Made by a program: the position numbers and the translations under genes. Below the pieces are notes generated by a model. The model ran no database searches, had not been told where the DNA came from, and saw nothing but the letters and a program-made list of their open reading frames with translations. This document shows, in pieces, positions 12,931 through 38,289 of a stretch of DNA of 39,177 bases. This DNA comes from Dicyema japonicum. Its lineage: Eukaryota; Dicyemida; Rhombozoa; Dicyemidae. Within the stretch, counting starts at the first letter, position 1. Every line of letters starts with the position of its first letter. The DNA lies in contig RDEW01000056.1 of the NCBI GenBank assembly GCA_011109175.1, forward strand, positions 238,224 to 277,400. Reading direction: 5' to 3'.

Positions 12931-13057
12931 AAAGAAGTGATACCAACAATTTGGATTGAGATTCTAAATAATTGTGATAATTTACTGGATTTAGTTATTA
13001 ATAATTTTATTTATTTAGTAAATTATAAATTATATAAAATAAATAAATAACCTATAA

Positions 13058-14547: not shown

Positions 14548-14556
14548 GAGGCTGAC

Positions 14557-14818: not shown

Positions 14819-14901
14819 GGTATAATCGCTTTGACTAAATCAATTTAAGAATTTCAAGGTAATAATAAAAAAAAAATTTTTTATTATAAAATGAATAAAA
14901 A

Positions 14902-15219
14902 TTAAATTAAGGCATCCGAATGGGCATGCTATTTCCCCTAACAATAGCCAACGAGATACGTTCTCGGAACCAACTAGTCTCTCGCAGATCCTTGGTCACA
15001 GCTTGAATCATGGAGCCGATCTTACGAACCAACTCATCTGCTTGGAGGCCAAGGATTCATATAAATTAAGGCATCTGAATGGCCATGCTATTTCCCCTAA
15101 CAATAGCCAACGCGATACGTTCTCGGAACCAACTAGTCTCTCGCAGATCCTTGGTCACAGCTTGAATCATGGAGCCGATCTTACGAACCAACTCATCTGC
15201 TTGGAGGCCAAGGATTCAT
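14902..15219 (+). repeat. Two tandem copies of a 159-bp unit inside the MULE-like element
   Basis: Unit 1 is about 14902-15060 and unit 2 about 15061-15219, with only a few differences (for example CATCCGAATGGGC versus CATCTGAATGGCC). The unit is less AT-rich than its surroundings, so it may be captured host or element DNA. I do not recognise it. Confidence 0.9.
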
Positions 15220-15535
15220 AATATAATAAAATTGACTTAACTTTTTTCGCTTTGGTTTAATTTTTTTGACCTTGACTTTTTTCGCTTTGGTTTAATCTTT
15301 TTGACTTAATCAATATACGGATTTTAATTCCTTTCGAAAAAGAATTTCAACAAGAACAAATAAAAAAACGATTGATAGACAAAAAAAAACTTTTAAATAT
15401 ATTTCTGGATCGCCAGGACGGAAAAAACAGTAGGAGAGGCCCTAAAACCAATTGCATGGAATATTAAATATTCTTTTGATTCACATTAAATAATCCCTTG
15501 ATTCACGTTAAATAAAAATCATATGTTTATTTTTT

Positions 15536-15703
15536 TTAAAGCTTTTTCACGAGAGCCATAGTATTTCATAGCTCCGCATAGGCAGGACACTCACTTTATT
15601 TAAGTAAAGAACAGTTAATTTTAACTAATCGTAGAACCAAGGAATGATCTTCACTTCTTTTTTTCTTTTTCTTGTGTGAGTGTCCTTTCTAGACAATTTA
15701 GTT
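15536..15703 (-). mobile_element. 3' half of the SINE, inverted, inside the MULE-like element
   Basis: This is the reverse complement of roughly 4025-4180 of the SINE: the GACAATxxx / CCTTT / CTTGTGTGAG block, the A-rich run, GAAGATCATTCCTTGG, CCTGCCTATGCGGAGC and the terminal GGCTCT..GTGAAAA. The promoter boxes are missing, as in a 5'-truncated SINE. Confidence 0.85.
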
Positions 15704-15765
15704 AAAAGTAGAAAAAATCATTTTTAGAATTTATTTCCACCACGTGTAGTTTTAGTTGTGGCGAG

Positions 15766-15947
15766 ACATTTTAATTCATTAACATTAGCCAAAATTAACT
15801 ATTCAAATAATTTGTTATTCTAAACTCGCTTACTTTAAAATGAAACGATCATGAATACATTTTAATTCATTAACATTAGCCAAAATTAACTATTTAAATA
15901 ATTTGTTATTCTAAACTCGCTTACTTTAAAATGAAACGATCATGAAT
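15766..15947 (+). repeat. Two tandem copies of a 91-bp unit inside the MULE-like element
   Basis: Copies at 15766-15856 and 15857-15947 both start ACATTTTAATTCATTAAC and end CGATCATGAAT. They are nearly identical, so the duplication is recent. Confidence 0.9.
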
Positions 15948-15963
15948 AAAAATCTTAATTTAT

Positions 15964-16231
15964 AAACGGAAAAAAAGTCAAGTCCGTAATTTCGTTAACG
16001 GACTTGACTTTTTTTCCATTTTGCGCTAAATTCGAAAATTTATAAGGGAAAAATTTTCAAAAATGGAAAAAAAGTCAAGCGGAAAAAAAGTCAAGTATTG
16101 AAAAAATTTTTAAAAATTAAAAGATGCTAGTAGTATCACAAAAATGCGATATAAACTAAAAAAAGACAACTTGACTTTTTTTCCGCTTGACTTTTTTTCC
16201 GCTTACGGACTTGACTTTTTTTCCGCACTCC
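15964..16231 (-). repeat. Right terminal inverted repeat of the MULE-like element
   Basis: This is the reverse complement of 14557-14818, again with seven copies of the GGAAAAAAAGTCAAG motif in both orientations. Extra bases near 16201-16215 and differences in the outer 7 bp are the main mismatches. Confidence 0.9.
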
Positions 16232-16240
16232 GAGGCTGAC

Positions 16241-17280
16241 ACAAGTCTCATCAGAACGGTTTCGAGTAGTTACTACTAACCGAATAAGAAAGGCTTGGAA
16301 ACATCCAGTTTCTACCTTAAGTCGTGGTCAGTCCTTAAAACCAACGCTTTTTTTACTTAAAACTTAATTCACAAATCCTGTGCGTTATTATTTGTATTTA
16401 TCTTACCTCTTTTAAGGCACGAAGATTTTTTGCTTGTTCAGCTTGCGGTTGAAACTCCGAATCTTGTACACCTCCGACGTTGGAATTTCTGAGTACTCAT
16501 GGAAATCGGATTTCTACACGAATAGGAAATCTCAATGAGTGCTGTTTGCTATTTGAGTGGATCTCGTTCGTCATTCTTAGAGAGGATAGCCAATAAGTCA
16601 TGGCGGCCACAGTATGACCCTAGGACGACCTATATGTTGTCCTTAAATCGTCGCGAATATGGCTAAATACAGTTACAACTGTCCCCATTTAAGTAAAGGA
16701 GCATGACGGTTGATCATTTAGATCCATGCTCTGCCAAGACAATATGTGGAGGAATAACGAGGTTGTATGTAGTTTCATCTTCAATAAGTATGGTATTCGC
16801 CACACCAGAAAGTAGCGGACTAATAAGGTGCAATCTGTAGTAGAGAACACAAGGTCCAAGTCAAGATAGACAGTGTAATTCGTCGGTGCTTGTCAAGCCA
16901 TTTTGGTACTAATAACCGGCCATTTTGGTACAAAATTAAGAATGTGACCAAGTCCTTATCATAGAAGTTGGTATTATGTCTCAAGACCGGTTGCAGACGG
17001 TGGTGAGCGACAGCAGTAACTACTACACTGGTGTGCGACAGCAGGTCTAACGAGTTACTAAAAACGATTGCAAAATAATAAAATGGTTCTAAATTTGAAT
17101 GCAATTGTTAATTGAAAATTGTATGTTTCAATTATTATAGTTTTATATTTTAATTAATTTAATATGGTTAACCCCAATAACGTTAAATTTAACCATGTGT
17201 TAATAATTGGTTCTTGTGATTACAAGTATTATCCCTGTACGATTCCTGATTAATCGTTCGTATGAAGAACCTATTATATT
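16241..17280. other. Spacer with no confident gene, copy 1
   Basis: Open stretches exist on both strands, such as 16820-17104 (-), but the few differences from copy 2 there mostly change amino acids, so they do not look selected. A 29-codon frame at 17164-17253 (+), starting MVNPNNVKF, follows an AT-rich leader and is nearly unchanged in copy 2 (34706-34795). It could be an orphaned first exon cut off by the adjoining LINE fragment. Confidence 0.35.
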
Positions 17281-17860
17281 TTTTATTATCTTTATTTTTG
17301 TCCGATCTCCCCATTCCGGAATCCGAAAACGATGTTCTTCTCTCTTATGCAGATGATTGTTTTAGTTTCAAGAGACAGGGATATTCAGAATGCCACAGAG
17401 AGGATCCAAAATAACTTGGATAGTCTAAACATTTGGATGATAGAAAACCCCTTAGGATGAGTGCAGAAAAGTTAATCATTTCATTTTTCACTTCAGACAA
17501 AAGATTGGAAAGGAGGACAATCACCTTGAAGTTCGACAAGGACGATTTCCCTTTTAACAGATGACAGAGGATATTGGGGTGACATTTGATATGCACCTTT
17601 GCTCATCATTTCATATTGAAGACATACTACTCAAAATGCGAAAGGAAATTAATATTCTCAAGACCTTATCTGGAATATGGAAGGTCGGTACCCACCTAGT
17701 ACTGAAGAACATATACAAGCAGTACATCGATCCATGTATTTCATATGCATGTGCTTTGTGGGAACCCTCCATCTCATTAAAAATAAAAGAAAATTGGATA
17801 AAATGCAGAAGAGGGCGTTCCGAATTACGGAGCGATGGACCGACTCCTCTGGAAGTCCTC
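17281..17860 (+). mobile_element. APE-type LINE fragment, RT palm to thumb, copy 1
   Basis: The plus strand reads, across several shifts, DVLLSYADDCFSF (RT catalytic YADD, about 17328-17366). Next come an IQNATERIQNNLDSLNIW block and AEKLIISFFTSDKR. Then GVTFDMHLCSSFHIEDIL (17577 on) leads to LVLKNIYKQYIDPCISYAC and a MQKRAFRITE-type block. The order YADD ... LGVTFD ... YKQYIRPxLEYA ... QxRALR is the palm-thumb order of Jockey/I-like elements, and the motifs resemble those of the element at 21481-24258. Confidence 0.65.
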
Positions 17861-18125
17861 ATGAGGCTAGATTCCGAGATGACTCAAGGAACCCGATACG
17901 TACATGTGCGACATCGAGAGAGTGACATTGGGTAAAGATGAGGACTTTATTCGAACATATTGGGATCACGTGATAGTTAGTGGACCGACTCCTCTGGAAG
18001 TCCTCATGAGGCTAGATTCCGAGATGACTCAAGGAACCCGATACGTACATGTGCGATATCGAGAGAGTGACATTGGGTAAAGATGAGGACTTTATTCGAA
18101 CTTATTGGGATCACGTGATAGTTAG
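17836..18125 (+). repeat. 145-bp tandem duplication, present only in copy 1
   Basis: Units 17836-17980 and 17981-18125 begin TGGACCGACTCCTCTGGAAG and end GATCACGTGATAGTTAG, with very few differences. Copy 2 has one unit, at about 35398-35541. Confidence 0.9.
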
Positions 18126-19255
18126 TTTCGATTTTTGACCGGGTCTTGTGGTGTTTAAATAAATAAGATAATAGATTATCCGCCTCCTGGACTGAATCTT
18201 TCTCTTGTTGGTCTTGAGACATGACAACTTCCCGGAAAAGTGGGTGCTTCAGATTCTTACGGTATGAGATATTGTCGCTAGTGAGTCTAATTCGGTTTAT
18301 AGTTTCCGAGCGTAAGTCATTTCATTTGTTTAAAATTAAAAATGAAGTTTTCGTAGTCAATCTTATGAATGCAGATATGGAGGGAAGATATAGAGAAGTC
18401 ATCATCTTGAGGAGATGACAACCCAGTCTGGACTTGTAAATTTTCTTGAATTACGAAAAATAAGCTAAGTCACACGACTGTCGCTTTTTTTTAATAAGAG
18501 TTACCTATTCCTCTACACACCAGAATATTCTCTTCAGCAATGACCACAGGTTGGTTCTAACAAGAGATGAACTCCTTTTCGATACAATTAGGAATAATCA
18601 GTTTCCATGGTTGCTGGAAGTGGCATGTCCCTCCAGAACACTTAAGTAAAGTAAACATGCATTGTGTGACTATTATGTGATTTCTTCTGTGGCCGTATAA
18701 CAACCAAGGCTTTCTTCTTCGCTTTTTCATGTTTTTTTTACAAAATTCGGTAGACTCTATATGTTAGGGTAGTTGGCACACTGGAGTGAACTGCATGTCC
18801 GTTTACCTTACGGAGACAATGAAGGGGGTTGATACTATCCAAACGTCTGCAGATTTTAAATTTATTACAAAAAGCAATAGACCCAACTGAACTTCAACAT
18901 TATTCGATGTTCTTTCCTTGAATGGGCTGAAAGAACATATTATTTTTTTATATCGCGGTTCCTTTGAGTAAAGAAACTGGTTGTTAAAAAAGCAATAACT
19001 CAAAGAGGGCGTTTCCAGAGATCACTCAATTTGATCTTGTGGGGCGAAGCCAAATGTGATCTTGGACAAAATATAAGATAACTCGTTTTTTAGTCGTTGG
19101 TTTTCATCGGGTTAACTGCTCGTATTGAAAACTGCCAAAAATGCTGTGGCGAACAGATCAAGCTTCATTGCTTTACCGAGCAAACTTATTACGGTTGTTA
19201 GGTATTGGTTAAAGGACGAGCGTATGGTTACCGTCCCATGATCAATTTATGTGAA
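18126..19255. other. Spacer with no recognisable gene, copy 1
   Basis: Short open stretches (18221-18418 +, 18803-19003 -) diverge freely between the two copies and match no family I recognise. Decayed transposon sequence is likely. Confidence 0.4.
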
Positions 19256-20230
19256 AACTATTTATTTTAAAACCCCAAGACCGACAAGAACGTATAAACT
19301 CATTAATTAAGTGATCCCAGTCTCCAACATGCAAAGGAATTCTATTAGAGTGAACTTTGAATTCCTCTTAATGAGCCGCTCTTTCTCTGAATTGGTTTCC
19401 ATATCTTTGCAGATACGTATGAAGCCTTGGCTATTCCTCAACGTCGCCGCTCTGAAAGGAGACTGAGAATGGATAAGGTGTCTGATTGCATATGTCGCAT
19501 GATCCTCGCCTAGAGAGTCATACGCTCCATCCTCGAAGAGAGAAGAGTGAATCTCCAAGCAGAATATGCATATTCAATCGTCAGCACAATAACTTGGAGA
19601 TATATCTTACTGACACAAGAAAAAGCTCTTCGTTGTGATAGCTTTTAAAAAGTTCCATTTTCGAAGATCCTTGGTTAACACAGACTCCGTGTAACTAGAG
19701 AACGTCATAAGATAGTCGAATGTCACACCAAGGACCTTCAGGCTTCCCGTATAATGAATGGGAATGTTTCCTAGGAATATCTCAAATCACCTTTAAAAGT
19801 CCTGTCCGTAGTAAATGGAGTGAACTAAGACTTGGATGCAACACAGACAGCAAACACGGAGTGAAAACTATAAATTATTATTATTAACCCCAGGCTTACC
19901 ACAGTAAGCTCAGTACAAACAGTCATAACTAACTCATCCAAGGAAAAAATCAAAGAGAGAACATCATCTTGTGCCTACCAAATCCATCTTTCAATACATC
20001 ATTACAGGCTTCCATTTCCGAAGAGAAGTGGGGAAATAGGTCCGCCCTTTTCCATTTTTGTCCCACGTCCTACCGTCGCGGACATCACTTCATTCTTTAG
20101 CAGAATAGTTTTCATAATGCAATCTTCATCAGAGGATTTGGTCAGGGAGAAAGGTAGGAAGATCCCTTTTAACAACTGTGTCGTGCCAGAAGGACTCGTC
20201 GCCTCACGGGTGGGATCTGTTGACAAGAAT
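19256..20230 (-). mobile_element. APE-type LINE 3' fragment, copy 1
   Basis: On the minus strand a block reading LGVTFDYLMTFSSYTESVLT, followed by a KAITTKSFSCVSKIYLQVI-like stretch and IEYAYSAW (about 19560-19760), is the palm-to-thumb part of the same LINE family as the element at 21481-24258. A C-terminal tail follows (about 19307-19558). It ends in the shared 3' terminus near 19256-19320 (AACCCC...CTTAATTAA...). Stops and shifts are numerous. Confidence 0.55.
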
Positions 20231-20340
20231 TGACCTTTGCTGAAAACTATAAAATATAAAAATAAATTATTGCTTTATTTAATTAAATATTAATAATTTT
20301 AAAAATAAGTTTTAATTATCAATTTGAATTTAATTGCCTA

Positions 20341-20818
20341 ATGAATTTACTCAAATTAATCAAAAATTTTCAAAATTATAGACAAAATAGCACAGTAAAT
20401 TTCAATTCTTTCATCCAATCTGTTCAATGGATAAAATCATCACCAGATGAGAAAATTTGCAGATTTGTAGTAGAAGATAGCCACGTGGATGAATCCGGAA
20501 ATTTACATGCTGGTTGTGCCTTGACTTTGATGGATGTGTTGACTTCGCACTGGCACTTTGATCAGTACAAAATCATGCCAATGAGCATAAACCTTCATTC
20601 CATGTAATTTATGACAATAAATCACTAGATTCTATAATCCCGCACGTGTCGGAGATTCCCTGGTTATTAGATGCACTAATATGACTGTTCACAGAAAAAT
20701 AATCACTGCTAACTGCAGCATAAGGAGAGAAGAGGATTGGGCTGATGTAGCTTTTGGTATTCATACAATTTTTAAAGTCGACCAAACTGACCTTAATACG
20801 TCTAATATATTAAAATAA
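20341..20818 (+). CDS. ACOT13-type hotdog thioesterase, intact, one 25-nt intron (copy 1)
   Basis: Exons are 20341-20603 and 20629-20818; the 25-nt intron 20604-20628 starts GTAATTT and ends CACTAG. Splicing gives 150 residues without a stop. Unspliced, the frame stops right after the intron start. ACOT13/THEM2 enzymes hydrolyse medium- and long-chain acyl-CoA, in part at mitochondria. Hotdog landmarks are GNLHAGCALTLMD (residues 53-65), SINLHS, NPARVGDSLVIRC and FGIHTIFKV. The family HGG motif is HAG here. Asp65 is kept, but the active-site Asn at position 50 (numbering coincides with the human protein) is Asp, so activity may be altered. The start ATG follows an AT-rich leader and aligns with the family N-terminus. 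Confidence 0.85.
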
Positions 20819-20839
20819 ACTATTTTATGGTTTTCTAAT

Positions 20840-21085
20840 AAATTTATTCCTAAAATCAACAAATAAAGATAATAACTGATGTTCTCGTCTACATTGGTCA
20901 GGTCCTTGTGTAGAACCTCTGGTAAAGTTATGCGAGGTCTTCCACAGAACGAGGTATTCACTTCTACTGAGACAAAAGCTGAAAACTGGAGACGATTTGG
21001 ATGCGCTCAGAATAACTGCCAATAACCGTGGAGCATGGAAGAAGTTAGTTAAGAGAATTGTGGAAGAAAGAATAACCTGAAGAAA
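20840..21085 (+). mobile_element. LINE C-terminal scrap, copy 1
   Basis: The frame reading RLHWSGPCVEPLV and then KTGDDLDALRITANNRGAWKKL (about 20888-21078) resembles the last part of RTE/Jockey-type ORF2 proteins (RRLRWLGHV...RAWRxLV). It ends with a TGA at 21078-21080. A similar scrap follows ACOT13 in copy 2. Confidence 0.45.
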
Positions 21086-21480
21086 AATACGACACAAGCG
21101 GAACCTTAATTAAATAAATTACTTTTTTGGTTCTTCGAAAGTGCTACTAATAATAATATGATGTTCTCGGCACACCTCTCAATTCTCTCAGCTTCACACA
21201 AATCCGTGATAGACTAAGAACCCAATAATCTCCTTAATATCGGGAGATTAAATGGCATGGCTGTTGCAATACAATGATGCTCTATGGGTTCAATTCCTCT
21301 TTTACTTGGTCGAAGGGTTCGTTCATTTTGTTCTTTCTCTCTCTGTCTCTTATGGTTCCCAATGCCAGATTGGTGGGAAATAAAATTATCTGCTCATCTC
21401 CCTTGAACAGAGACGTTCTCATAATAGCAAAGAATAGATATTTTCCGGTGTTTCGCTTCTGTGTGCTACCAACGCTTTAT
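21086..21480. other. Spacer with no recognisable gene
   Basis: A 72-codon open stretch at 21274-21492 is disrupted in copy 2 and has no recognisable motif. Nothing else is supportable. Confidence 0.4.
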
Positions 21481-24258
21481 TTATTTTATTAACCACGAAA
21501 TCACGAGAAAAAGGATAAAAGTTATCGTCTAATTAAGTGATTCTGGTGTCCATAACAGTCCTTTTCCTGCTGTTAGTTTTGGAGTCCTGGATTAATCTCC
21601 ACAGCGGGGAAGGTTTCTTCTCATATCTCGGGCAGGCGTCCATATGTGCGCTCCGAGAGGATGTCAGAAGACTTTGCGATCTTGATGAAGTCTTGGTGAC
21701 GCTCCGTAAGGTATTCGATGATTGAGGAGACATTTAGTGTTCTCCGCAGTAGCGAGGTGGACGTCTTTTTCGACGATCTAAATAGAATCCTGAGACATCA
21801 ATTTGTAAAACCTCCAGCTTACTCTGTGCCGATATTGATAAAAGGGCAATCTATCCAGCACAGGCGTACTCGATACCACGTAGAACGAATTGTTTGTATA
21901 GAAACTCTAACGATGGGCAGGAAGAAACTGGAAAGTTAGTGAACGCCTTGAGAATTCCAATTTTTTGGATCCTCGCGGTTACAAGGTCCATTTGATGAGT
22001 AAATGTGAGTAGGGGATCCAGGATGACTCAAGGTTTGAAAGGGTTTTCTTAATGGGAAGCGGGGAGTCATACAATGTTATTCGTGTGGTTGCCCGTAATT
22101 TTTTCCGTGCTGAAGTAAACGTCATCACATGTGACTTTTCTGGTGATATATTCAGACAGTTCTTCAGGAACCAAAGACCCTCTGGTTTAGTAGGTTTTGC
22201 ACGGATCGTGTCGCCTCCTCGATTCTTCGATGTTTCACTGCGACCACGAGATCATCCGCATACGATAGAAGAATTGTGTCTTTGGTGGTAGGGGATGAGA
22301 GGTCACTGATGAACATGTTGAAGAGCATTGGAGACAACGGTGATCCTTGTGGATCTCTATTTGGAAGTTATCGTGGTTTTGATTTTTGGTTGTTTGCCAC
22401 CACTTGGTCCATTCGACCGTTGATGAAGTTAACCAACCATGACTTGAATTTAGGGTGGATCGACTTCGTAAAACTTTTGCTGAAGGATCTCCCGGGATAC
22501 TGAGTCACAAGACTTCTCTACATCCACTGAGACCGGCACGGTTCTCACGCGTGGATTTGGGGTATTCAGGCCGTCCGAAATGAATTGAACCAGTTTTGTT
22601 AGATGAGTTGTTGTTGGGTGTCCTTCGCGGTATCCTTGTAGAAAAGATGGTAGAATTATGAAAAGACCAGTTTTTCTAACACTCGTAATAAGGCGCAGAT
22701 AATAGATACCGGGTGGTAGGAGAACTGGCAGTTTAGTGGTTTGTTTTTCTTCAGAATAAGGTGTTCAGGTATTTCCTCCATATTGACGGAATCTTGTTCT
22801 CGTTTATTGAGAGGTTGAAAATGTGTGTTATTGGGGCCGTCGCGGAAGGTCCCAGGTGATCTGTTAGAGAATGGAGAAGTCATCTGAGCAGCGGGACGAA
22901 GAGTTATTCATTTTTCTGATTACTGAGTGCACCACTGAAGGATCGAAGAAAGTCATGTTGGGAAATTTATTCCTCCGACCATTGCCAGAACAAACATTCA
23001 GGTCTTTTGAATATGGTTTTTTTGACTAATTTTTACATAGTGCTTAATAATTTCATTGAGATTTGGATATGGCTCTCGATTTCCAATTAAATGTGGATTG
23101 CACTTCTTAAGTTTCCTTATCAAGTCCCATATACAGTGAAGGAAGTATTGTTCTTAGCTTTTCTGCGCAAAACTTCCCAACGTTCTTTGTTGTGTTTTGT
23201 GACGTTCCGTGTGATTTCTTTGTTCAGTTTTGATATCCTTTCAGTTACGTCCACTGATTGTCTTTAGAAATTCTTCAACGTGTTTCTCGTTGGATTAGAC
23301 ATCGAGTTTCATAATCAATTGGGTGTGATGGACGTTTGAAAATGACCCATCGGAATGTATCTTTGCGAGCTCGGAGTATAATCTCGTTGAGGTATTTGAC
23401 AGCAGTGTCGATAGATCCAAGTTCTCTATCCGGAAGGCCTGGAGATGTAGTTCGGTAAAATGTGTGAAGGCAGGCCATATTGCCTTTGAGAAGTTCACAT
23501 CGGTTCTCGCAGTGTTAACTAACTTATGTTTTTCTGGGATCCTCATAAAGATCGGGATTGCCGGTATGTAAGACGTATATAAATCTCATGAAATAACAGC
23601 CTCAAGAAAAGGAGAAGCAAAAGAAATGTTGAGTGACGTAAGGAGAACGCCAAAAGTGTCGGATATGAGGGCTCCCAGTTGATCCAGTTGTTGGTCAGCA
23701 TACCATTGAGAACTCTTCGCATTTAGGTCACCGCCAATAAGCGTGTTCTCCAACCTGATAAATCGTGTGAGTTCAGGGCTGTAACCGCTGGGGCATAACG
23801 GTGGAGGAGGTATGTAGATTTTGACAGCTGTCAATCTGAGCGAGGGTAGGAATTTTCTCAGAGTTAGATGTTCCAGTGTGTCGTCCGAGATATTTCTGGC
23901 CATTATTTGTTTCCTGATTAAAGTAATAAAGCCTCTTTTCTTTCCATGATCTCAGTCTCGTCTGAAAACTGAGTATCCCGGAAAGTTGGGGGTTGGAAGC
24001 TGTGGGTTAAGTTTCGTCTCTTAGAAGAGCTATATCCATTGAGTGTTTTATGAGAAAGCGTTGTAGTTCGGCAATTTTTGTTCGGGTACCATTGATGTTA
24101 ATTTGTAATATGACTAGATCTGGTCCAGTATTTTCCTCGACATCTCCACAGAAAAGGAGTAGGTTTCCGAGCATCCACTGTTGCGGAATAGGAAGTTTGC
24201 GACTCTTTTCCAACACTTCAAGTGAGCGATGACACCACGTAGGCGAGTCACACGGCAT
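21481..24258 (-). mobile_element. APE-type LINE of the I/Jockey/Ingi-like group, with 2A-like motif, inactivated
   Basis: On the minus strand from 24258: a short leader of about 32 residues, then LLLFCGDVEENTGP (24121-24162), resembling a 2A ribosome-skipping motif. The endonuclease follows directly (LVILQINING, DIALLRDET), with IGGDLNAKSSQW near 23700-23740. Downstream are DVNFSKAIWPAFTHF (near 23470-23510) and an RT with NKPLN...YHPVSI (about 22700-22740), EGHPTTTHLTKLVQFISDGL (about 22570-22640) and ILLSYADDLVVAVKHR (about 22240-22290). A C-terminal region runs to 21533, then a 3' terminus with CACTTAATTAG and GGTTAATAAAATAAATAAA. Several stops and shifts break it. The clade assignment is tentative. 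Confidence 0.75.
24121..24162 (-). other. 2A-like ribosome-skipping motif with NPGP changed to NTGP
   Basis: Residues 33-46 of the 24258 (-) frame read LLLFCGDVEENTGP. The 2A consensus ends D-V/I-E-x-N-P-G-P after a hydrophobic stretch, and all but the first Pro of that core are present. 2A sequences at the N-terminus of LINE polyproteins are established in trypanosomal and several metazoan elements. Loss of that Pro would be expected to abolish skipping, which fits a decayed element. Confidence 0.75.
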
Positions 24259-24969: not shown

Positions 24970-25761
24970 ATGATCACAGTAATTTAATTATTACTAAATA
25001 GATTCCCGACGAAGTAAATAATAATGTTTCGGACTATGACATCTTGTGGAGATACAAAGGTTACATTGAATCAATCATCATCTCCAATGATCAGGTAAAA
25101 ATGAGGTACTTTTCATTTTCATCTAGAATCGATCAAATGGCTCGGGATATATGGAATGCCTACAGGGGAGACTCTGTCCTACTTCTCTGTGTCCTTAGGG
25201 GAGCTTTTAAATTTACCGCAAAAATAGTCGATGCCTTGGAAAGGCTAAACCTTGCTTGTCCTTCAGAATCGTATGTAAGATTTAATTTGGAGTTTATCCG
25301 AGCTTCAAGCTACTTTGTAATGTGCTATGATTAGTTAGAATGATAAATCCCTTGGATTTGTTAAAGTATTTAACCCCGAGTCTCTGGAATGTGTCAGAAA
25401 CAGAGTTTGGAGTTTTTTGATTCATAGAATGTGCTGATCGTGGAAGATATTGTGGACACTGGTAAGACGATAACAAAGCTGAGGGAGGTTATTGCAGAAT
25501 ACGACCCAAAATCATTAAAGCTTGCCAATTTTCTATCGAAGAGGTTACCGACTCCCACTTTGAATGGGGATTGTATTATTTACTTTTATTGCTAGTCGTT
25601 GGATTCAGTATACCAAATCGGTTCGTTGTGGGAAATGGATTTGAGTATAATGGATATTTCTGGGATTTGCCTGTTTGCTGTTGGGTTACATTTAGCACTG
25701 TGCTTTCATAACTGATGCCGCTATTGAGGAATTGAAAATTAAAAATAACCATTCATGTTAG
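24970..25761 (+). CDS. HPRT1: Hypoxanthine-guanine phosphoribosyltransferase, intact, six introns of 21-23 nt
   Basis: Exons: 24970-24978, 25002-25105, 25127-25316, 25339-25404, 25428-25572, 25596-25672, 25696-25761. Introns are 23, 21, 22, 23, 23 and 23 nt, all GT..TAG. The exons sum to 657 nt, giving 218 residues, the length of vertebrate HPRT1. The enzyme salvages hypoxanthine and guanine to IMP and GMP using PRPP in the cytosol. Landmarks: RIDQMARDI, LCVLRGAFKF (residues 58-67, family CVLKGGYKF), FIRASSYFND, the PRPP-binding signature VLIVEDIVDTGKT (125-137), LSKRLPTPTLNG, and DFVGFSIPNRFVVGNGFEYN with YFWDLPH. The Asp of the family LDYNEYF block is Glu here. Every intron must be removed to restore family sequence, and each junction falls inside a conserved run. 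The start codon is fixed by a 9-nt first exon (MIT), the least certain part. Confidence 0.93.
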
Positions 25762-25790
25762 GAAATTTCTTACAAGGAAATTTCTTACAA
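25761..25790 (+). repeat. 15-bp tandem duplication at the HPRT 3' end
   Basis: GGAAATTTCTTACAA occurs at 25761-25775 and 25776-25790, overlapping the last base of the HPRT stop codon and lying 14 nt before the copy 2 boundary. Confidence 0.9.
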
Positions 25791-25803
25791 AACGTTTTAA
25801 GAA

Positions 25804-26615
25804 AGGGGTACATTAGAGATCTTATCGAATATGACAAAATTAAACAGATATTTTGTGGAATCGATCCTGAGGATGTAAGTACTCAAATGAAACGGAGAGT
25901 ACGAGAAAAGGACTCACATTTTTCGCTTAGAAACGATAAGTTTAATTCTGATTTAATTAGACTTTTCTTGAATGGAAACACAGAAAAATTGGTTATTCCT
26001 CTGGACTGTGAGTCCGAGATGGACACTCATTCCAGAACCCTCCATCTGATCTCACACGGAGGGATCAATAAAATCGAATTTCTTTGCCGTCGGAACTATT
26101 TATATTTCCGTAATAAGAAAAGTTATTAATGATTGTGAAGTTTGTAAGTTTACGCTTATTCTTAAGGTTATCTTTTTTAAACAACTGCTTAGACTGTTGA
26201 CGAGAACTATCATGTTTTTGCGTCTGCTCCAAATGAGCTTTTTCAAATTGATCGAATCGATCTGAAAAAATTTCAAAGTGTCAACAAGGATATAAATGGA
26301 TCTTATTCTTAATTGAGTCGTATTAAAATTTTTATAGTCGGTATTAAATTTTTATAACCACGTTAGTTTCCCTTTTGCAAGGCTGTTGTTTAATAAGTCG
26401 GCATTTAAAGTATGTCAGAATTTGGACTTCCGGAAGACCAACTATCCTAGATCCCAAGTTTGTATCAAAATAATTTTTAGGGAATAGTCACATCCATGAA
26501 AGACCAAATAATCCAAGATACCAAGTTTGTGCACAAATTGATTTTTAGGGAATAGTAGAACGTTTCAATCAAACGTTGACAAGCTCAATATCTAAACTTA
26601 TTGATGGGAATCCTT
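25804..26615 (+). pseudogene. Integrase (rve) relic, copy 2
   Basis: Same blocks as copy 1: LHLISHGGINK and DCEVCK, a 26-nt intron candidate at 26167-26192, NELFQIDRIDLKKF and GIVERFNQTL. The one-base shift after YFRNKK is shared, so it pre-dates the duplication. A tandem duplication of roughly 70 bp (about 26430-26560) precedes the GIVERF block. The C-terminal domain and the start of the next LINE are deleted. Confidence 0.7.
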
Positions 26616-28745
26616 ATGACAAAGAAACCAGAAATCAAACCAAAGTTATGACAAAGAAACCAGAGAAGTGCTGTGTAGATATGGATTTCGAAAATCAAAC
26701 AAGATAAGAATTGCATCAGGTATGAAATCAAACTCTTAGAAAAGAAACTAAAAATTCATGAGTCGAGAAACGAATTTAAAGACAGAATTGGTGCTTTGAA
26801 CTTAATAGGAGGTACTTTTACAGGAATCTGAATGGAGAACATGAAAAAGCCAAGTTTGGCTTTAATAAAAATGAGTGCCTCGCATTCTGGGAGAACATCT
26901 GGAATAAACAAGACAATGAGGAAAAAGTTTTGCAATTAAATAAGAACATTACAGGCTCTGAAGAAATGCATGCTAATTTTACTAAAGAATTCATCTTCGA
27001 TATAATTAAAATTTCTCCAAACTGGAGAGCAGCTGGTTGTGATGGAGTGTACAATTTCTTTATTAAGAAATTTACATCAATACATGACTCTCTTTGTGAA
27101 AAATCGTCAAGATAATTCATGGTGAATACTCACCTCAAGAGTGGTTTTACAAGGGAATAACATATTTGATTCCGAAAAAAGTTAATTGTGATTCTCTAAA
27201 AGACTTGAGACCTATTACCTGTATGCCAAGTATGTACAAGCTGACAACGAAATGTGTGAATAAGAATCTATCAGACTACATTGAAGCACATAGACTGATT
27301 AGTAACAACCAACTGGGAACTCGTAGATTCTGTCAAGTGTGCCAAAGAGCAAGCACTAATAAATCAGTGTATCAATCAGGAGAAAGGGAATAATTTGACT
27401 ACTGCCTGGATAGACGTTAAAATGGCTTTTGATTCCTTGGATCATGATTTCCTGAATAAAGTACTTGAGACATCTGGATTGCCTGTTTGGATCGTTAATT
27501 TTATTAAAAACTTGGTAACTAAATAGAAGATTAAATTGACATTAAATCAGAAAATGATTGGAGTAGTGAAAGTGAAAAGGGGATCCTTCAGGGTGACTCA
27601 CTGTACCTTCAGATCTTTGTCTTTGTGATGGATGCGTTGAGCAAATCATTAAGTGAAAATTTCCGAGAGTGATAATTAACGGATGTCATCCAGATCGGAT
27701 GTCACTCTCATACGCAACAAGTTTCTATTGTTTATGGATGATTTGAAACTATTTTCCCATAGAGGATACATTGGTAAGAATGATAAATCAAATAATGCTT
27801 TTCTTTAAGCTGCTGGACTTGAACTACCTGGGAGTGCTTGAAGATAAAGTCAAGCAATGTTTTGAAGAATGATGTATTGAAGGCAATTTTTGATACGATG
27901 AACAAGAGAATAAATAATTTAGCAAATACGAAACTTAACTCTGCTAACATGTTCAAGGCCATCAACAAACAAGCACTGTACTATATAATTACTACATCAG
28001 AATTGTCGATATCGATCCAAACGAATTCGAAAACATTGATAAAAAAATACGCGGGATACTAACAAGTCATCTAATTCATCGAAACCTTATAATAAAAAGA
28101 CTTTAAATGCCAAGAAACAAACTAGGAAGAGGATTGATCTCTATAACCCATAAGAGCGGACGTATGCTTTTTCAATTTCTGAGGGATCTGGAGAAAAAAT
28201 CCTATTAGTGCCCAAGAAGAGCAGGAATTCTACGAGTTATTAAATCAAAAAAACACATATGGCCAGTGTCAGAAAACTGAATATATTGAAATCATTCTTA
28301 AATTCCAGGCCGTCACGGGAATGCGCTGTTGTCTTGTACAATTTCAACTTTTAAAACTTCATTGACTTATGGAGTTTCAATATCAAATTTGTTCAGCCAA
28401 ATTGGTACGTCTAACTAATCTACCTGCCAATTTTTCCCTCAATGCTTGACCACACTTTAATCGAAAACAACGGCTCCGGTTTCATCGGTCTGTGTGGTCA
28501 CGAAAAAAGTAGTTTTTTCCATTCAAGACTAGAACAAGCAAATACACTTAAATTGGGAAAAAACCTACACTTTTTTTCAAATTTTAAATGAAAAGTAATC
28601 GTTGTCGATACAGGAAAGCCGTGGGTACTCTGGAGGAACACAAGAAAAACCTTTCGATCCTTTTGATGTTCACCGGGATCACTAAATTAGTTGGTTTACT
28701 CCTTCTTTCTTGGTGTTCCCTTCTCGGAGTTATTAAATAAATAAA
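26616..28745 (+). mobile_element. R4/Dong-like LINE, degenerate, copy 2
   Basis: Lacks the first few hundred bases of the copy 1 element. It retains GCDGVYNFFIKKF, LIPKKVNCDSLKDLRPITC, a FDSLDHDFLNKVLE palm block, GILQGDSL (about 27577-27605, deleted in copy 1), FMDDLKLFSH and an NMFKAINKQAL block. About 60 nt present in copy 1 near 9095-9155 are missing. Frame breaks are abundant. Confidence 0.75.
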
Positions 28746-28982
28746 AGAACTAATGAGATTAATATATAACTAGACATCTCAGCACGCTCCGCGTAATTAG
28801 TGAACCGTTATATGTCACGTGGGGACTATAACTTTAGGGTCAGTGTGACGATTAATTGCTTCTTTCACCCGATGAATTCGTCTAGAGTGCTTGGCCTCAG
28901 CACAGAATTCGTTTAAACATTCAGTGAGGAACGACATGATGACTTTTCAGAATATTGGATTCGATGACGGATAAGTCTCAAT

Positions 28983-30154
28983 TCAGCTCAATGACCCAAA
29001 TGAGACAACAACAGCACTCATGTCTCTGACGCACCAAGATATCCCACGTGGATATGATAAATGATTTTTAAACATCGAGTCGTTTTTGTACTTCCAACAA
29101 AACGCAGTTTCAAAAATATTATTAACAACAATAGAAGAACAACCACCAAATTATGAAATATGTTTTCCAACAATTTCAGTCACGTGTTTAGAATCCAAAA
29201 AGTCATTAATTCCCTTGGTTGTCATAAAAATACAAATATCCTCAGGCCTGATTGAATGAGACATAATTTCTGAAAAAGCTTTGAGGTATGGGACAGACTT
29301 GTATAATACAGGAAGCATGATATTTCTCTTCATTCCTTGAGAAGTCATAAATTTCATAACATCAGTGAGGTAATCACGAGACCACTTAAACTGGAAGTCT
29401 CCGAATGCTCTAAAAGGCATAAAGATACCACAAAGTCCACTATCAACAAAGATTTCTTTCTTTTCTTCTTCGGGGACCGAGTTTTTAATTCTCTCAAATT
29501 CTTCCAAATTCTTAAAAGTGGGAGGATTAGTGAGTTTAACAGTCTTTAATTTGACTTCATCTGCAGAAACAACTAATGCAGAACAATCCCCAGTTCTAGC
29601 GAAATAAATAATCCTTTTATGATGTATGCAAGGCAGGCACATGCTCCGTAAAGAGCTGTCAAGACGGACTGATTTATAAATTAAAGAGGTTCTCCTCACT
29701 ATTTGGGTTGGAAGAATATTCCTAGCCAAGGAAATCATCGAAGCGTGTGAAGCCCAACGAGATCGACTTCGATGAATTTGGGGAAACGTTTAAATTAGTC
29801 GAATCAGGAAGAGAAATCTACTGTATTAGACATATTTACATTAACTGCGTAGTAAATGTAGGAACTAACAAAGTGAGGGAGTAACTGTGAGCATAATCTA
29901 CCAAAGTGAATTCCTCTATGACCGTCAACAACGCCAATGATGAAAGCATCTTTAATATGGATCTTAGTTAGGATGATAAAGTCTTTACATATAGTATTGG
30001 ACGGAAACTTAAGTTGCCTTGCAATAGAGATCAACTGGAGAATCCACCGGATCTCACACGCGTCGTGGCTTTTTAGTGTAGATAGGTATCCAAGTTTCAA
30101 GGTAAACCTCGCTTTTCTACGATGTGGGAACCACTTCTTTTTACCTACGTACAA
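28983..30154 (-). pseudogene. Pyruvate dehydrogenase phosphatase-like PP2C relic, copy 2
   Basis: The N-terminal block is open at 29804-30154 and contains FPSNTICKDF and IIGVVDGHRG, where the second Gly of DGHGG has become Arg. The C-terminal block, 29151-29738, has FARTGDCSALVV, FMPFRAFGDFQFKWS (Asp kept, unlike copy 1), YKSVPYLKAFSEI, the TKG substitution shared with copy 1, and VTEIVGKHIS then the shared TAA. After that stop the C-terminal reading has changed at many amino acids relative to copy 1, as expected without selection. Confidence 0.75.
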
Positions 30155-30420
30155 ATCCTCCGTGCTTTTTGCAACTTTTACAAACTGACAACAAGTTACC
30201 TATTTGATTTTCATGATTTAGGAGAACGTTCTTATACAATGACAGGACTGACCGATCTATGGGAGCGATCGGCATTTGCTGCGAATGTATTAGCTGCTGG
30301 CTCCTAAAAGTCAGTGTCGACGAAGTTACTTAACTATCAAACTTTAATAAAAACGTACATATATCATAGTTGTTCAATGGTTATAAGGTCATGATCACAG
30401 AAAGCGCATTTAACGTCTAG

Positions 30421-30555
30421 AAATATTCGGAGTATGTGTTGAACTTGGTTGAAGATTTATTCTGTTCGAAATGTTTGATTGTCATCAACTGTGATAAAAA
30501 ATTTGCAGATGATTCACATCGTAAAACTAGGAAGCATCTAAAGGACCAAGTATAA
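30421..30555 (+). pseudogene. CGGBP1/hAT-like zinc-finger fragment, copy 2
   Basis: Unchanged counterpart of 11758-11892: C-x2-C then H-x5-H, ending in TAA. Confidence 0.4.
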
Positions 30556-30682
30556 TTTCTTTATAGATGATATGACAGCTCATTTCAAAAAGACCATACG
30601 ATTATGTCAGATAATGGAATCGGCTCAATTAACGTTCGCGCCACGTGGAATAATATGGACATAAGAGTAAAGAACATTTTTA

Positions 30683-30990
30683 ACATTAACATTTATTAAC
30701 CCCGGATACACCAAGAAAGAAGTTAAAGTATCAACTAATTAAGTGTATCCAGTTTCCACTTTTACAGAAACAGAGTCCACCCGGATTGGTTCTTGGCGTC
30801 ATGTGATGCTTCGTGGTTAATTGGTTGAAGTTTTCTGCTTGCTTGTCTGTTCCTCCTCTCTTTTCCTATTAGAGTGGCGTCATGTGATCCATTTGTCTAG
30901 GTGGCGCCCAGTGCCAGGCCGGTGATAATTAGGTCATCATCCGCAAATGATATAAGTGTCTAGAATTGATTGGAATATCACTTAGGTAGA
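30683..30990 (-). mobile_element. LINE 3' fragment with internal deletion, copy 2
   Basis: Holds the shared 3' terminus (about 30683-30765) and the start of the FADDD block (about 30915-30950). The 582 bp between them seen in copy 1 are missing. Confidence 0.55.
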
Positions 30991-31135
30991 ATTTGATTAA
31001 AGTTAGAGAAAGAAGTGATACCAACAATTTGGATTGAGATTCTAAATAATTGTAATTATTTACTGGATTTAGTTATTAATAATTTTATTTATTTAGTAAA
31101 TTATAAATTATATGAAAAAAATAAATAACCTATAA

Positions 31136-31902
31136 ATGATCGTATCCTTATTTGCATATGAATCATTAATTATTTTGATAACTCCAGTAATTCTACGTGG
31201 TGATGGTTAACTTATTATTTGAATTTAGCACATTTATGCATCCATCCATATGCCAGATATAATACATTGTGGTATAGTCAAAGTTCAAATGGTAAAATAA
31301 ATGCAGTTTTAAAAGCGCTAATATTTGTAAAATATAAGAATGAACATAATTTTGTAAATTTTATTCAATATTAGACTATCGAACGCACATTGATTAACAT
31401 AAACGGCAAATTAAAGAGAATTCAGTCAAAAGACGAAATTCGTCTTATCTTAACGTCCAACGATATTCTCTTGTCGTTCACATTCACCTTTTCTGGTCGA
31501 GTATATCTTTAAAAAGATTGAAATAAATCATATTTTCAATGTTTACAATAATTATGAGATTGAACTCAATCAGCAGCCGACTAAAGATCCTGAAATACAT
31601 TTATGCAAAAAAATTGTTAAAAAATTTCCCAATCTTTATTTTAAACTGTCGTGTTTAGTTGCCCGAATACATGGAAGAGGAGATATTGAAGGATCTTTAT
31701 TCTACAGTTTATTTTTTAATATATTTTAGATAAGCAATGCATGAGTAAATCATCGTATAAAATCAGGAAAGTGATTATATCCTTACTTTGTTGTGTCATT
31801 GTAATCTCGGCTTGGATAGCAATATTCGTGGTCAGTGTTGCATGTCAGAATATAGGAAAATACAGGTTGTTTACTAACCAAAATAAATTATCCAGTAACT
31901 AA
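31136..31902 (+). pseudogene. LAMP-like gene, copy 2, frameshifted by a 2-nt deletion
   Basis: The four exons and three tiny introns (23, 21 and 23 nt) of copy 1 are recognisable. In exon 3 copy 1 reads GGTCGAGAGTATATCC but here it is GGTCGAGTATATCT (around 31495-31507). Two bases are lost, shifting the frame so that a TAA follows at once. The transmembrane and tail exon stays nearly identical at the DNA level, so inactivation is recent. The ACOT13 copies have no such lesion, so the two duplicated genes have had different fates. Confidence 0.85.
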
Positions 31903-32648
31903 TCATTAATAAGGGAATTTTGGTTTATTTAATATTATCCGAAATACATTGAAAATCTCCATGAAATAAAGGGATGTGATTGAATTGTTGGGTAGTTCGA
32001 CCGACCTTTCCATAGATCACTCTAGACCTTAGTATTTCCAATTTTTCTAATTCTGTTCTGTGTAAGTTTTCTGGAAATTTTCAATTTAAGTTGGGGATTT
32101 CGTTAAAATAGATATGTAAGCAATATTTTACTTTTTTTGATAATTTTTTTTATTTTAAAGCCTAATCTGGGATTCTAATTTGACATTTCTTTTGTGCTTA
32201 ACTGACATAATTAGTTAACCTCATTTGAAATAAAGTTACTTGTTAGCATGTTATTGTGAGAGACCAAGTTGTTTATTTTAATCAGTCATCTCTTAATTTT
32301 TATTTTCAGTCGATTCAAGGTTTCAACTATTTTCTTATAATAATGTCTCAGCGGTCTCAATGTAAGCTCATTTTTAACCATTTGCTTTGTAAACAACATG
32401 ACTTATGGAAAGAAGACAGGACCTCCGTCACGTTATCGCTACAAGATAACCGCAACGAGTATTTCTACATTATACACAGATGGCTGAAATCAATACTCTC
32501 TGACTGACAGAGACGTACATTGATTTAATCAAAAAAATCTAGTTCCGCTTGAAGGTATAGTTCTCTGTCGTTCACGAAAGCCCCCAGATAACTTTCAATT
32601 GAAAAAATCCTTTGCCCCCGAGAGGAAGGGTCCCGTCGTTGCGTTTCC
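31903..32648. other. Spacer with no confident gene, copy 2
   Basis: Corresponds to 13828-14400 of copy 1 plus extra sequence. An 83-codon open stretch at 32256-32507 has no counterpart in copy 1 and no recognisable domain. Confidence 0.4.
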
Positions 32649-33613
32649 ATCTAAACCAGAGGTTGTCAACGGTGTGCCGCGGCACACTAAGTGTGCCGTA
32701 AGACAATTTCTAGTGTGCCGCCTGCTAAACACAATTTGAATAAATTTATATACATTTTTTGACGTAATTAATTTAAAAAGATAAACGAATTAAAATAATT
32801 ACTAAAATTAAAATAATCATTTTTTATTATATATTAACTGACATTTACATTGGTTAACCATTATTTATTAATTTTTTAATAACGTGCGCATCAACGTGGT
32901 TATGGGTAAATCATTTCGTCGTTCTTATAAAGATTCTTATTTGTCATTTGACTTATATGCAAAGATAAATTAAACTACCTCAATTTCTAATTTGCATGGA
33001 AGTTTTGGCAAATGATGCTATGGTTCCTAGCAAACTAAAGAGACATTTTACTTCCAAGCATCCGACTATTCCGAAAAATCTGTGGATTATTTTATCTATT
33101 TGAAAAAACAGCACAAGTATTATTTAGTTTTTACTATAAATCGTAGATCTAGTCAAATGATGTTCAGTGAAACTTTTGTAAATACAAAGGAATCATTGAA
33201 ATGTTCATGCCTGATCTCAAAATTGATAGCAAAACAACTAAAACTCACATTATTGGCGATAACTTGATAATCCCTGCTTGTCGTATTATTGCTCGGACTA
33301 TGTTTGGTCATAAATATGAACAAAAAATAATAAAGATACCTTTGTCAGATAATAATGTTTCTCGTCGGATTTGTGCTAAAATGCGGTGGCTTTGTCAACC
33401 ATTCGACCTGATGTTGATGATATATGCAAAAACAATAATAATTAAGATTTCATTTTTTTATTAATAAAAATTTGGGCATTAAATTACCAATTTTTGTACT
33501 TAGTTTTACACATCTTAAAAATTTAATTTTTTAATTTTTAATGTGTGCCGTGGATTATTTTTTACGATTAGTGTGCCGCGAGAATTATTTTTTGAAAAAG
33601 CTCTGATCTAAAA
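32649..33613 (+). mobile_element. Non-autonomous hAT element (ZBED5-like), copy 2 only
   Basis: The element 32657-33605 (949 bp) starts CAGAGGTTGTCAACGGTGTG and ends ...TTTTTGAAAAAGCTCTG, giving CAGAG-type hAT termini. Next to each end is a GTGTGCCGCGGCACAC-type palindrome. The flanking 8-mers ATCTAAAC (32649-32656) and ATCTAAAA (33606-33613) fit a hAT 8-bp target duplication with one mismatch. Inside, NDAMVPSKLKRHFTSKHPT (about 33012-33066) is a BED-type finger remnant. THIIGDNLIIPACRIIARTM and then KIPLSDNNVSRRI (33240-33375) match ZBED5-like hAT transposases. The catalytic core is deleted. Confidence 0.88.
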
Positions 33614-34820
33614 CGATCCAGCCCCCTGTTGCAAAGATAACAGGAATCCATCCGCCATAAGAGATTGCTTCATGACCTTGTTTATGAAACGTGCATCGGG
33701 AACCGGCCACTGTGCGTCGACAAGAGAGGGTCCAAAGTCTTTTGCGGTTCATCACATTTCCAAATCGACAAAGTTGAGGCTGACACAAGTCTCATCAGAA
33801 CGGTTTCGAGTAGTTACCTACTCACCGGATAAAAAAAGTCTTTGGAAACATCCAGTTTCCACCTTAAGTCGTGGTCAGTCTTAAAAACCAACGCTTTATT
33901 ACTTAAACCTTAATTCACAAATCCTGTGTGTTATTATTTGTATTTATCTTACCTCTTCAAGGCACGAAGATTTTTGCTTGTTCCGCTTGCGGTTGAAACT
34001 CCGAATCTTGTACACCTCCGACGTTGGAAATTCTGAGTCGTCACGGAAATCAGATTTCTACACGAATAGTAAATCTCTATGAGTGCTGTTTGCTATTTGA
34101 GTGGATCTCGTTCGTCATTCTTAGAGAGGATAGCCAATAAGTCATAGCGGCCACAGTATGACCCTAGGACGACCTATATGATGTCCTTAAATCGTCGCGA
34201 ATATGGCTAAATACAGTTACAACTGTCCCCATTTAAGTAAAGGAGCATGTCGGTTGATCATTTAGATCCATGCTCTGCCAAGACAATATGTGGAGGAATA
34301 ACGAGGTTGTATGTAGTCTTCATCTTCAATAAGTATGGAATTCGCCACACCAGAAAGTAGCGGACTAATAAGGTGCAATCTGTAGTAGAGAACACAAGGT
34401 CCAAGTCAAGATAGACAGTGTAATTCGTCGGGGCTTGTCAAGCCATTTTGGTACTAATAACCGGCCATTTTGGTACACAATTAAGAATGTGACCAAGTCC
34501 TTATCATAGAAGTTGGTATTATGTCTCAAGACCGGTTGCAGACGGTGGTGAGCGACAGCAGTAACTACTACACTGGTGTGCGACAGCAGGTCTAAAGAGT
34601 TACTAAAAACGATTGCAAAATAATAAAATGATTCTAAATTTGAATGCAATTGTAATTGAAAATTGTATGTTTTAATTATTATAGTTTTATATTTTAATTA
34701 ATTTAATATGGTTAACCCCAATAACGTTAAATTTCACCATGTGTTAATAATTGGTTCTTGTGATTACAAGTATTATCCCTGTACGATTCCTGATTAATCG
34801 TTCGTATGAAGAACCTATTA
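33614..34820. other. Spacer with no confident gene, copy 2
   Basis: Counterpart of about 14395-14547 plus 16241-17280 of copy 1, joined here without the MULE-like insertion. The empty-site GAGGCTGAC is at 33776-33784. Confidence 0.4.
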
Positions 34821-34822
34821 TA

Positions 34823-35390
34823 TTTTTTATTATCTTTATTTTTGTCCGATCTCCCCATTCCGGAATCCGAAAACGATGTTCTTCTCTCTTATGCAGATGA
34901 TTGTTTTAGCTTCAAGAGACAGGGATATTCAGAATGCCACAGAGAGGATCCAAAATAACTTGGATAGTCTAAACGTTTGGATGATAGAAAACCCCTTAGG
35001 ATGAGTGCAGAAAAGTTAATCATTTCATTTTTCACCTCAGACAAAAGATTGGAAAGGAGGACAATCACCTTGAAGTTCGACAAGGACGATTTCCCTTTCA
35101 ACAGATGACAGAGGATATTGGGGTGACATTTGATATGCACCTTTGCTCATCATTTCATATTGAAGACATACTACTCAAAATGCGAAAGGAAATTAATATT
35201 CTCAAGACCTTATCTGGAATATGGAAGGTCGGTACCCACCTAGTACTGAAGAACATATACAAGCAGTACATCGATCCATGTATTTCATATGCATGTGCTT
35301 TGTGGGAACCCTCCATCTCATTAAAAATAAAAGAAAAGAAAATGCAGAAGAGGGCGTTCCGAATTACGGAGCGATGGACTCCTGGAAAAC
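34823..35390 (+). mobile_element. APE-type LINE fragment, RT palm to thumb, copy 2
   Basis: Same blocks as copy 1: the YADD block near 34890, GVTFDMHLCSSFHIEDIL from 35121, LVLKNIYKQYIDPCISYAC and KMQKRAFRITERW near 35339-35380. The last block reads in one frame here but is shifted in copy 1. Confidence 0.65.
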
Positions 35391-36650
35391 ATTGATCTGG
35401 ACCGACTCCTCTGGAAGTCCTCATGAGGCTAGATTCCGAGATGACTCAAGGAACCCGATACGTACATGTGCGATATTGAGAGAGTGACATTGGGTAAAGA
35501 TGAGGACTTTATTCGAACTTATTGGGATCACGTGATAGTTAGTTTCGATTTTTGACCGGGTCTTGTGGTGTTTAAATAAATAAAGATGAATTATCCGCCT
35601 CCTGGACTGAATCTTTCTCTTGTTGGTCTTGAGACATGACAACTTCCCGGAAAAGTGGGTGCTTTAGATTCTTATGGTATGAGATATTGTCGCTAGTGAG
35701 TCTAATTCAGTTTATATTTTCCGAGCGTAAGTCATTTCATTTGTTTAAAATTAAAAATGAAGTTTTCGTAGTCAATCTTATATACAGATATGGAGGGAAG
35801 ATATAGAGAATCTTGAGGAGATGACGACCCAGTCTGGACTTGTAAATTTTCTTGAATTACGAAAAATAAGCTAAGTCACACGACTATCGCCTTTTTTAAT
35901 AAGAGTTACCTATTCCTCTACACACCAGAATATTCTCTTCAGCAATGACCACAGGTTGGTTCTAACAAGAGATGAACTCCTTTTCGATACAATTAGGAAT
36001 AATCAGTTTCCATGGTTGCTGGAAGTGGCATGTCCCTCCAGAACACTAAAGTAAAGTAAACATGCATTGTGTGACTATTATGTGATTTCTTCTGTGGCCG
36101 TATAACAACCAAGGCTTTCTTCTTCGCTTTTTCATGTTTTTTTTACAAAATTCGGTAGACTCTAGTAGTTGGCACACTGGAGTGAACTGCATGTCCGTTT
36201 ACCTTACGGAGACAATGAAGGGGGTTGATACTATCCAAACGTCTGCAGATTTTAAATTTGTTACAAAAAGCAATAGACCCAACTGAACTTCAACATTATT
36301 CGATGTTCTTTCCTTGAATGGGCTGAAAGAACATATTATTTTTTTATATCGGTTCCTTTAAGTAAAGAAACTGGTTGTTAAAAAAGCAATAACTCGAAGA
36401 GGGCGTTTCCAGAGATCACTCGATTTGATCTTGTGGGGCAAAGCCAAATGTGATCTTGGACAAAATATAAGATAACTCGTTTTTTAGTCGTTGGTTTTCA
36501 TCGGGTTAACTGCTCGTATTGAAAACTGCCAAAAATGCTGTGGCGAACAGATCAAGCTTCATTGCTTTACCGAGCAAGCTTATTACGGTTGTTAGGTATT
36601 GGTTAAAGGACGAGCGTATGGTTACCGTTCCATGATCAATTTACGTGAAA
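35391..36650. other. Spacer with no recognisable gene, copy 2
   Basis: Counterpart of 17981-19255. It carries one rather than two copies of the 145-bp unit and several small indels. Confidence 0.4.
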
Positions 36651-38273: not shown

Positions 38274-38289
38274 ACTATTTTATGGTTTT

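Follow-up and report, generated by a model that had tools for sequence, protein, structure and literature searches.

The window analysed in the present study is a 39,177-nt stretch of DNA from a genome assembly of 64.7 Mb in 191 contigs, and it carries an HPRT-like gene, a gene of purine salvage, on the plus strand (Table 1). The first-pass annotation had proposed that six GT..TAG segments of 23, 21, 22, 23, 23, and 23 nt interrupt this gene. Their removal gave 218 codons followed by a stop codon, in agreement with that proposal. All six introns have GT..TAG ends, and most of them are AT-rich. The gene contains 23 GT..AG pairs spaced 19 to 28 nt apart; exactly six of these have the form GT[A/T]..TAG, and they are the six introns.

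Table 1. Features of the HPRT-like gene, in positions of the window
Feature	Positions	Strand	Length	Phase	Remarks
HPRT-like gene, coding part	24970..25761	+	218 aa		seven exons, six introns
Exon 1	24970..24978	+			codes MIT; weakest exon, outside the conserved domain
Intron 1	24979..25001	+	23 nt	0	contains TACTAA
Exon 2	25002..25105	+
Intron 2	25106..25126	+	21 nt	2	at human c.134
Exon 3	25127..25316	+
Intron 3	25317..25338	+	22 nt	0	at human c.318
Exon 4	25339..25404	+	66 nt		equal in length to human exon c.319-384
Intron 4	25405..25427	+	23 nt	0	at human c.384
Exon 5	25428..25572	+			codes the VEDIVDTGKT loop
Intron 5	25573..25595	+	23 nt	1	at human c.532
Exon 6	25596..25672	+	77 nt		equal in length to human exon c.533-609
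Intron 6	25673..25695	+	23 nt	0	at human c.609
Exon 7	25696..25761	+			includes the stop codon

Elsewhere, the window contains a large tandem duplication (6416-21572 and 25804-39025), the copies of which lie approximately 17-19 kb apart. Identity is 89-100% between the listed ungapped pieces that occur twice, which represent 20 of 42 families. The HPRT-like gene ends 42 nt upstream of the second copy. Approximately 150 nt separate the last listed duplication match from the end of the contig. Each copy carries one member of a pair of PP2C phosphatase open reading frames (ORFs) on the minus strand (10491-11075 and 29151-29738). The ORF at 183-734 matched the endonuclease/exonuclease family (PF03372) and perhaps belongs to a LINE-type element, while the ORFs at 952-1842 and 2570-3100 had no Pfam match at E 0.001. 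A DNA similarity search did not reveal a second HPRT copy within the window.

Support for the intron calls

The spliced protein was identified as a member of the HPRT family, as had been annotated. It matched the Pfam domain Pribosyltran (2.9e-20), and its PDB matches comprised 55 distinct sequences, the best of which were HPRTs (best E 5.6e-46). Among the best 120 of 1153 matches to database HPRTs, the closest was that of Heterobilharzia, with 41% identity over 89% of the length.

We aligned the DNA to human HPRT with a spliced aligner written for this analysis, which applies the GT..AG rule and accepts introns from 15 nt. The alignment score was 324 with introns and 122 without them. The best score was 43 among 30 control stretches taken from both strands of 15 windows and 44 among 20 block-shuffled controls. 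An alignment free of any GT or AG rule deleted 21, 22, 23, 23, and 23 nt at introns 2-6, with an offset of 0-7 nt, and hit the exact bounds of intron 5. Three additional deletions, of 29, 10, and 13 nt, were placed in the N- and C-terminal parts, where conservation is poor. Since the same lengths were obtained without a splice-site rule, the intron lengths are not a product of seeking GT..AG.

The GT/AG-constrained alignment recovered introns 2-5 on its own and did not reach intron 1. With a maximum intron length of 40 or 60 nt, it ended short of intron 6, which is based on the full protein alignment and the rule-free search. With a maximum of 300 nt, it called a 139-nt last intron (25680-25818); we regarded this call as spurious because of the low scores at that end of the alignment and the 23-nt deletion that the rule-free search placed at 25671. 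Of the six introns, the first is the least certain. When it is left in, the frame runs into a stop codon, and there is no ATG before residue 37.

In-frame stop codons are absent from three of the six introns, one of which also has a length divisible by three. This is intron 2, which would code for seven residues. Because of its length and the lack of an in-frame stop codon, a transcript retaining it is predicted to escape stop-dependent decay.

Short introns are ordinary in this genome

Introns were sampled from aldolase (two loci), Ras-family genes (97 matches, 30 loci used), HPRT paralogues (two loci), and the window gene. There were 143 calls; well-aligned flanks were required, which retained 87 calls and excluded 56. 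Among the 87, 73 were 19-28 nt in length, with a mean of 23.6 nt and the commonest lengths being 23 nt (18 introns) and 24 nt (17 introns). In 79 of the 87, an in-frame stop codon or a frame break required removal of the intron. The five introns longer than 200 nt are probably alignment errors. For CCT genes (eight loci), for which a distant subunit served as the reference and a looser filter was applied, nine of 18 calls were under 30 nt. Many long CCT calls were taken as errors of alignment to the distant subunit, and the nine of 19-28 nt that had fair flanks were used.

A dicyemid source had been suggested from the intron lengths, and aldolase supported it. Dicyemids are tiny parasites of octopuses and their relatives. 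The best match of the spliced aldolase was that of Dicyema acuticephalum, with 75% identity over the full length, and the other 119 of the 120 matches listed had at most 62% identity. The two aldolase copies share 269/361 and 254/361 residues with the D. acuticephalum aldolase. The source is a dicyemid and in all likelihood a species other than D. acuticephalum.

Dicyemid introns of approximately 25-27 nt have been in print since 2007. The values given in the relevant parts of the sources are a mean of 26.2 ± 1.9 nt (n=16; PMC2222250), approximately 25 nt (n=41; PMC2483917, from our reading of an unlabelled table row), and a median of 27 nt (PMC6543705); the mean intron length given for D. japonicum gene models is 38.2 nt (PMC6736024). 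No later paper on dicyemid introns was evident by title, most of the later ones being judged by title alone, and the word "intron" does not occur in PMC12249979. Since lengths of 21-23 nt are ordinary for this genome and near the published dicyemid values, the HPRT introns are not special in length. They fit a known dicyemid trait, and the phenomenon itself is already known. The HPRT introns had also been described as approaching the lower limit for spliceosomal splicing. They are indeed very short; however, the known limit is lower, with 15 nt in Stentor, 16-17 nt in mikrocytids, and 18-21 nt in a nucleomorph, according to the parts of PMC12316389 and PMC10245619 on short introns.

Splice signals and the putative branch adenosine

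The 5' splice site is weak. GT is followed by A or T in 65 of 71 introns, and G is present at +5 in only 14. The 3' end is TAG in 45 and CAG in 14 of the same 71 introns. Counting the last G of the intron as -1, A was found in 48% of introns at -7, 48% at -8, 25% at -9, and 24% at -6. Of 79 distinct introns, 77 have an A within -6 to -9. Shuffling of the introns gave 59.2 on average, and this number was not attained in any of 5000 shuffles. The corresponding count for 449 AT-rich GT..AG decoys taken from the window was 352.

The zone from -6 to -9 was picked after viewing the data. A further 19 introns, separate from the 79, all have an A in the zone (p 0.0072), although their A counts by position had already been viewed and the test was therefore not blind. 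These are dropped Ras and aldolase introns of 19-28 nt, excluding those with a start less than 40 nt or so from that of an accepted intron. All six HPRT introns also have an A in the zone, and the further 19 and the six HPRT introns together gave 25/25, against a shuffled mean of 18.6 (p 0.0002). An earlier test restricted to -7 and -8 yielded p 0.054 for the 19 further introns and p 0.012 for the nine CCT introns. Overall, 102 of 104 short introns carry an A at -6 to -9.

The sequence around this adenosine is biased weakly. T lies two nucleotides before the A in 47 of 76 introns, and the match to the complement of the U2 branch-pairing stretch is weakly raised (z 2.2 over 71 introns other than those of HPRT). 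TACTAA occurs in one of the six HPRT introns. Since the bias is weak, distance, rather than a motif, seems to count. We lean slightly towards a distance code, in which introns would be specified by GT[A/T], a motif-free branch A at -6 to -9, and a length of approximately 21-28 nt. In other respects, the animal has normal-looking snRNAs, SF1, and a U2AF2-like gene. The first-pass annotation had stated that such introns leave almost no room for separate recognition of the branch point and acceptor. This was too strong because almost every intron examined has an A at -6 to -9.

Alternatively, the lengths may be correct but introns may be chosen without reliance on a placed branch A, in which case the peak of A would only reflect the T-rich tail. 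Real introns are T-rich at -3 to -6 and at -9/-10, and the part of a published survey that covers dicyemids assigns them the weakest 5' score and no branch-point signature (PMC2483917), both of which are consistent with this explanation. However, permuting each column from -6 to -9 among introns, with the composition of every column preserved, gave a mean of 66.9 introns carrying an A in the zone, against the 77 observed, and none of 5000 permutations reached that number. Furthermore, the AT-rich decoys do not show a peak at -7/-8. We consider a mere reflection of the T-rich tail to be rather unlikely.

In-frame stop codons were also counted by intron length. Among introns with a length divisible by three, 22 of 30 contain an in-frame stop codon, against 16.5 in shuffles (p 0.012; a small sample). 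Introns of the other lengths show no excess (10/21 against 10.3 and 7/20 against 9.4). The excess fits the exposure of retained introns through stop codons, and HPRT intron 2 is an exception to it.

Spliceosome components in the genome

A search for U2 snRNA returned 25 matches, 22 of which were above the cut-off, and the branch-pairing stretch is unchanged in the four copies read. For U1-like RNA, none of 11 matches reached the Rfam cut-off, the best scoring 69.0 bits against 69.5; the core ACTTACCTG is present in the one copy read. The SF1-HH domain was found above its cut-off. U2AF2-like pieces lie in order on contig C114 and score below the whole-protein cut-off, with the exons having been scored separately.

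Parts of the minor spliceosome also seem to have been kept in a dicyemid genome. A U12 snRNA was found with 85.4 bits (G000:C68:163471-163599), and its 5' part resembles that of human U12. A U6atac match scored 37 bits against a cut-off of 33 (G000:C34:237761-237858).

Ancestral intron positions

Introns 2-6 were mapped by protein alignment to human c.134, 318, 384, 532, and 609, with phases 2, 0, 0, 1, and 0. Human HPRT has intron borders at c.134 and c.485. The part of a table of human HPRT mutants that indicates intron borders places others at 27/28, 318/319, 384/385, 402, 532, and 609/610 (PMC7674755). Therefore, five of the six positions are identical to those of human HPRT to the nucleotide and in phase. 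Intron 1 shares its phase with the human c.27 intron, from which it lies one codon away in a stretch without confident alignment; it is probably the counterpart of that intron and is a candidate for positional homology. The window gene does not have counterparts of the human introns at c.402 and c.485.

Three further HPRT-like copies are present in the genome. Two form a 98% identical pair approximately 24 kb apart on contig C62, and one is located on C120. In these copies as well, introns interrupt codon positions 113, 303, and 369, and they measure 21-25 nt except for one reading of 39 nt on C120. A 21-nt intron is located at the same codon as intron 2 of the window gene in the C62 and C120 paralogues. 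Their fourth intron, of 21-22 nt, lies two codons from that of the window gene, and they do not have the last intron. Putative introns that the paralogue alignments placed at frame breaks are false.

Since five positions and phases match human introns exactly and the rule-free alignment makes the same deletions, these segments appear to be ancient spliceosomal introns that shrank in place. The annotation of very short spliceosomal introns is thus supported by the spliced alignment, the five human positions, and the restoration of a conserved protein. In this respect the gene is a clean example of a known trait, as the five shared positions show that old introns can shrink to approximately 22 nt without moving.

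The encoded protein and the state of the gene

Residues are numbered as in human HPRT, counted from Met1. The residues of the PRPP loop, ED..DTG.T, are kept in the window protein. Three other residues are changed: Asp194 to Glu (D in 119 of 120 relatives), Arg200 to Trp (R in 116 of 120), and Thr111 to Leu (S or T in 114 of 120). Every conserved block had been described as being in register. The blocks themselves are; however, the near-invariant HPRT residues Asp194 and Arg200 are both replaced. Because of D194E and R200W, we refer to the window protein only as a putative enzyme. D194N is listed among human mutants selected for the loss of HPRT in the part of PMC7674755 that covers this residue.

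These two replacements raise the possibility that the window copy is a decaying pseudogene and that some of its introns are damage resembling GT..AG. The other HPRT copies, which keep D194 and R200, do decay: the frame is broken in both C62 copies within the conserved loop coded by exon 3, and in the C120 copy at a different place, just after the break of the C62 pair. However, the window copy has 218 codons without a stop codon and five introns at ancestral places. Moreover, a comparison with one C62 copy over 168 codons revealed 63, 48, and 111 differences at codon positions 1, 2, and 3, a pattern in which selection on the protein is visible, although part of it may predate any decay. Decay of the window copy is therefore improbable.

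Another explanation is that the segments are removed from DNA and not from RNA, as short internal eliminated sequences of the ciliate kind. Loss of DNA from somatic cells has been described for this lineage, with elimination in the embryo. All six segments are short, and most are AT-rich. Part of PMC6543705 considers circular DNA contigs and a possible diminution of DNA in dicyemids. This explanation is hardly credible given five of six segments exactly at human intron positions and phases, GT..TAG in all six, and spliceosome RNAs in the genome.

Interpretation

The locus is very probably a dicyemid HPRT-family gene with six ordinary U2-type introns, at least five of which were inherited from the animal ancestor and shrank to 21-23 nt. 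Intron positions and phases, the dicyemid source, the prevalence of short introns in the sampled genes, and genes for U1-like RNA, U2, SF1, and a U2AF2-like protein were all read from DNA. We infer splicing itself and the manner in which its sites are chosen. To the known trait, the present study adds that the intron positions coincide exactly with human ones and that the branch A appears to be set by position.

Each intron is probably recognised as a single short unit. The marks acting together would be a weak 5' site (GT[A/T]), a T-rich stretch with an end that is mostly TAG or CAG, a branch adenosine at -6 to -9, and a total length of approximately 21-28 nt. The branch A would be set by distance and not by a sequence motif. 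Unspliced transcripts would probably be destroyed in most cases through a frame shift or an in-frame stop codon. If true, the distance code would correct the published statement that dicyemids have no branch-point signature. A position-set branch A also offers a testable account of how an animal spliceosome may handle introns with hardly any sequence signal.

Comparison with other very short introns

Human HPRT1 belongs to the same family as the window gene, with five intron positions the same to the nucleotide and 37% identity (78/210 aligned residues). It differs in its extra introns at c.402 and c.485, whereas D194E, R200W, and T111L are found in the window copy. D. acuticephalum, Dicyema sp., and D. 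japonicum share the phylum, uniform very short introns, conserved positions, and very weak signals. Relative to published dicyemid introns, those in this genome may be slightly shorter, and a position-set branch A is seen.

In the 15-16-nt introns of Stentor, the branch A is the 10th of 15 nt in approximately 91%, according to the part of PMC9505925 on these introns. Stentor resembles the dicyemid in lacking a strong branch motif and in having the branch A at a nearly fixed position, and the distance code, if true, would represent an equivalent of this arrangement in an animal. In contrast, Stentor is a ciliate with even shorter introns, and the dicyemid A floats over four positions and the intron length over approximately 8 nt. 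The introns of mikrocytids (16-17 nt), the Bigelowiella nucleomorph (18-21 nt), and Trichomonas type B (23-25 nt) are of the same length class. Mikrocytid introns show sequence conservation, and CTAA is retained in Trichomonas type B introns, as described in the parts of PMC10245619 and PMC12316389 that treat them, whereas dicyemid introns keep no clear motif. Nucleomorph introns, like those of dicyemids, are described in the corresponding part of PMC2483917 as being without a branch signature.
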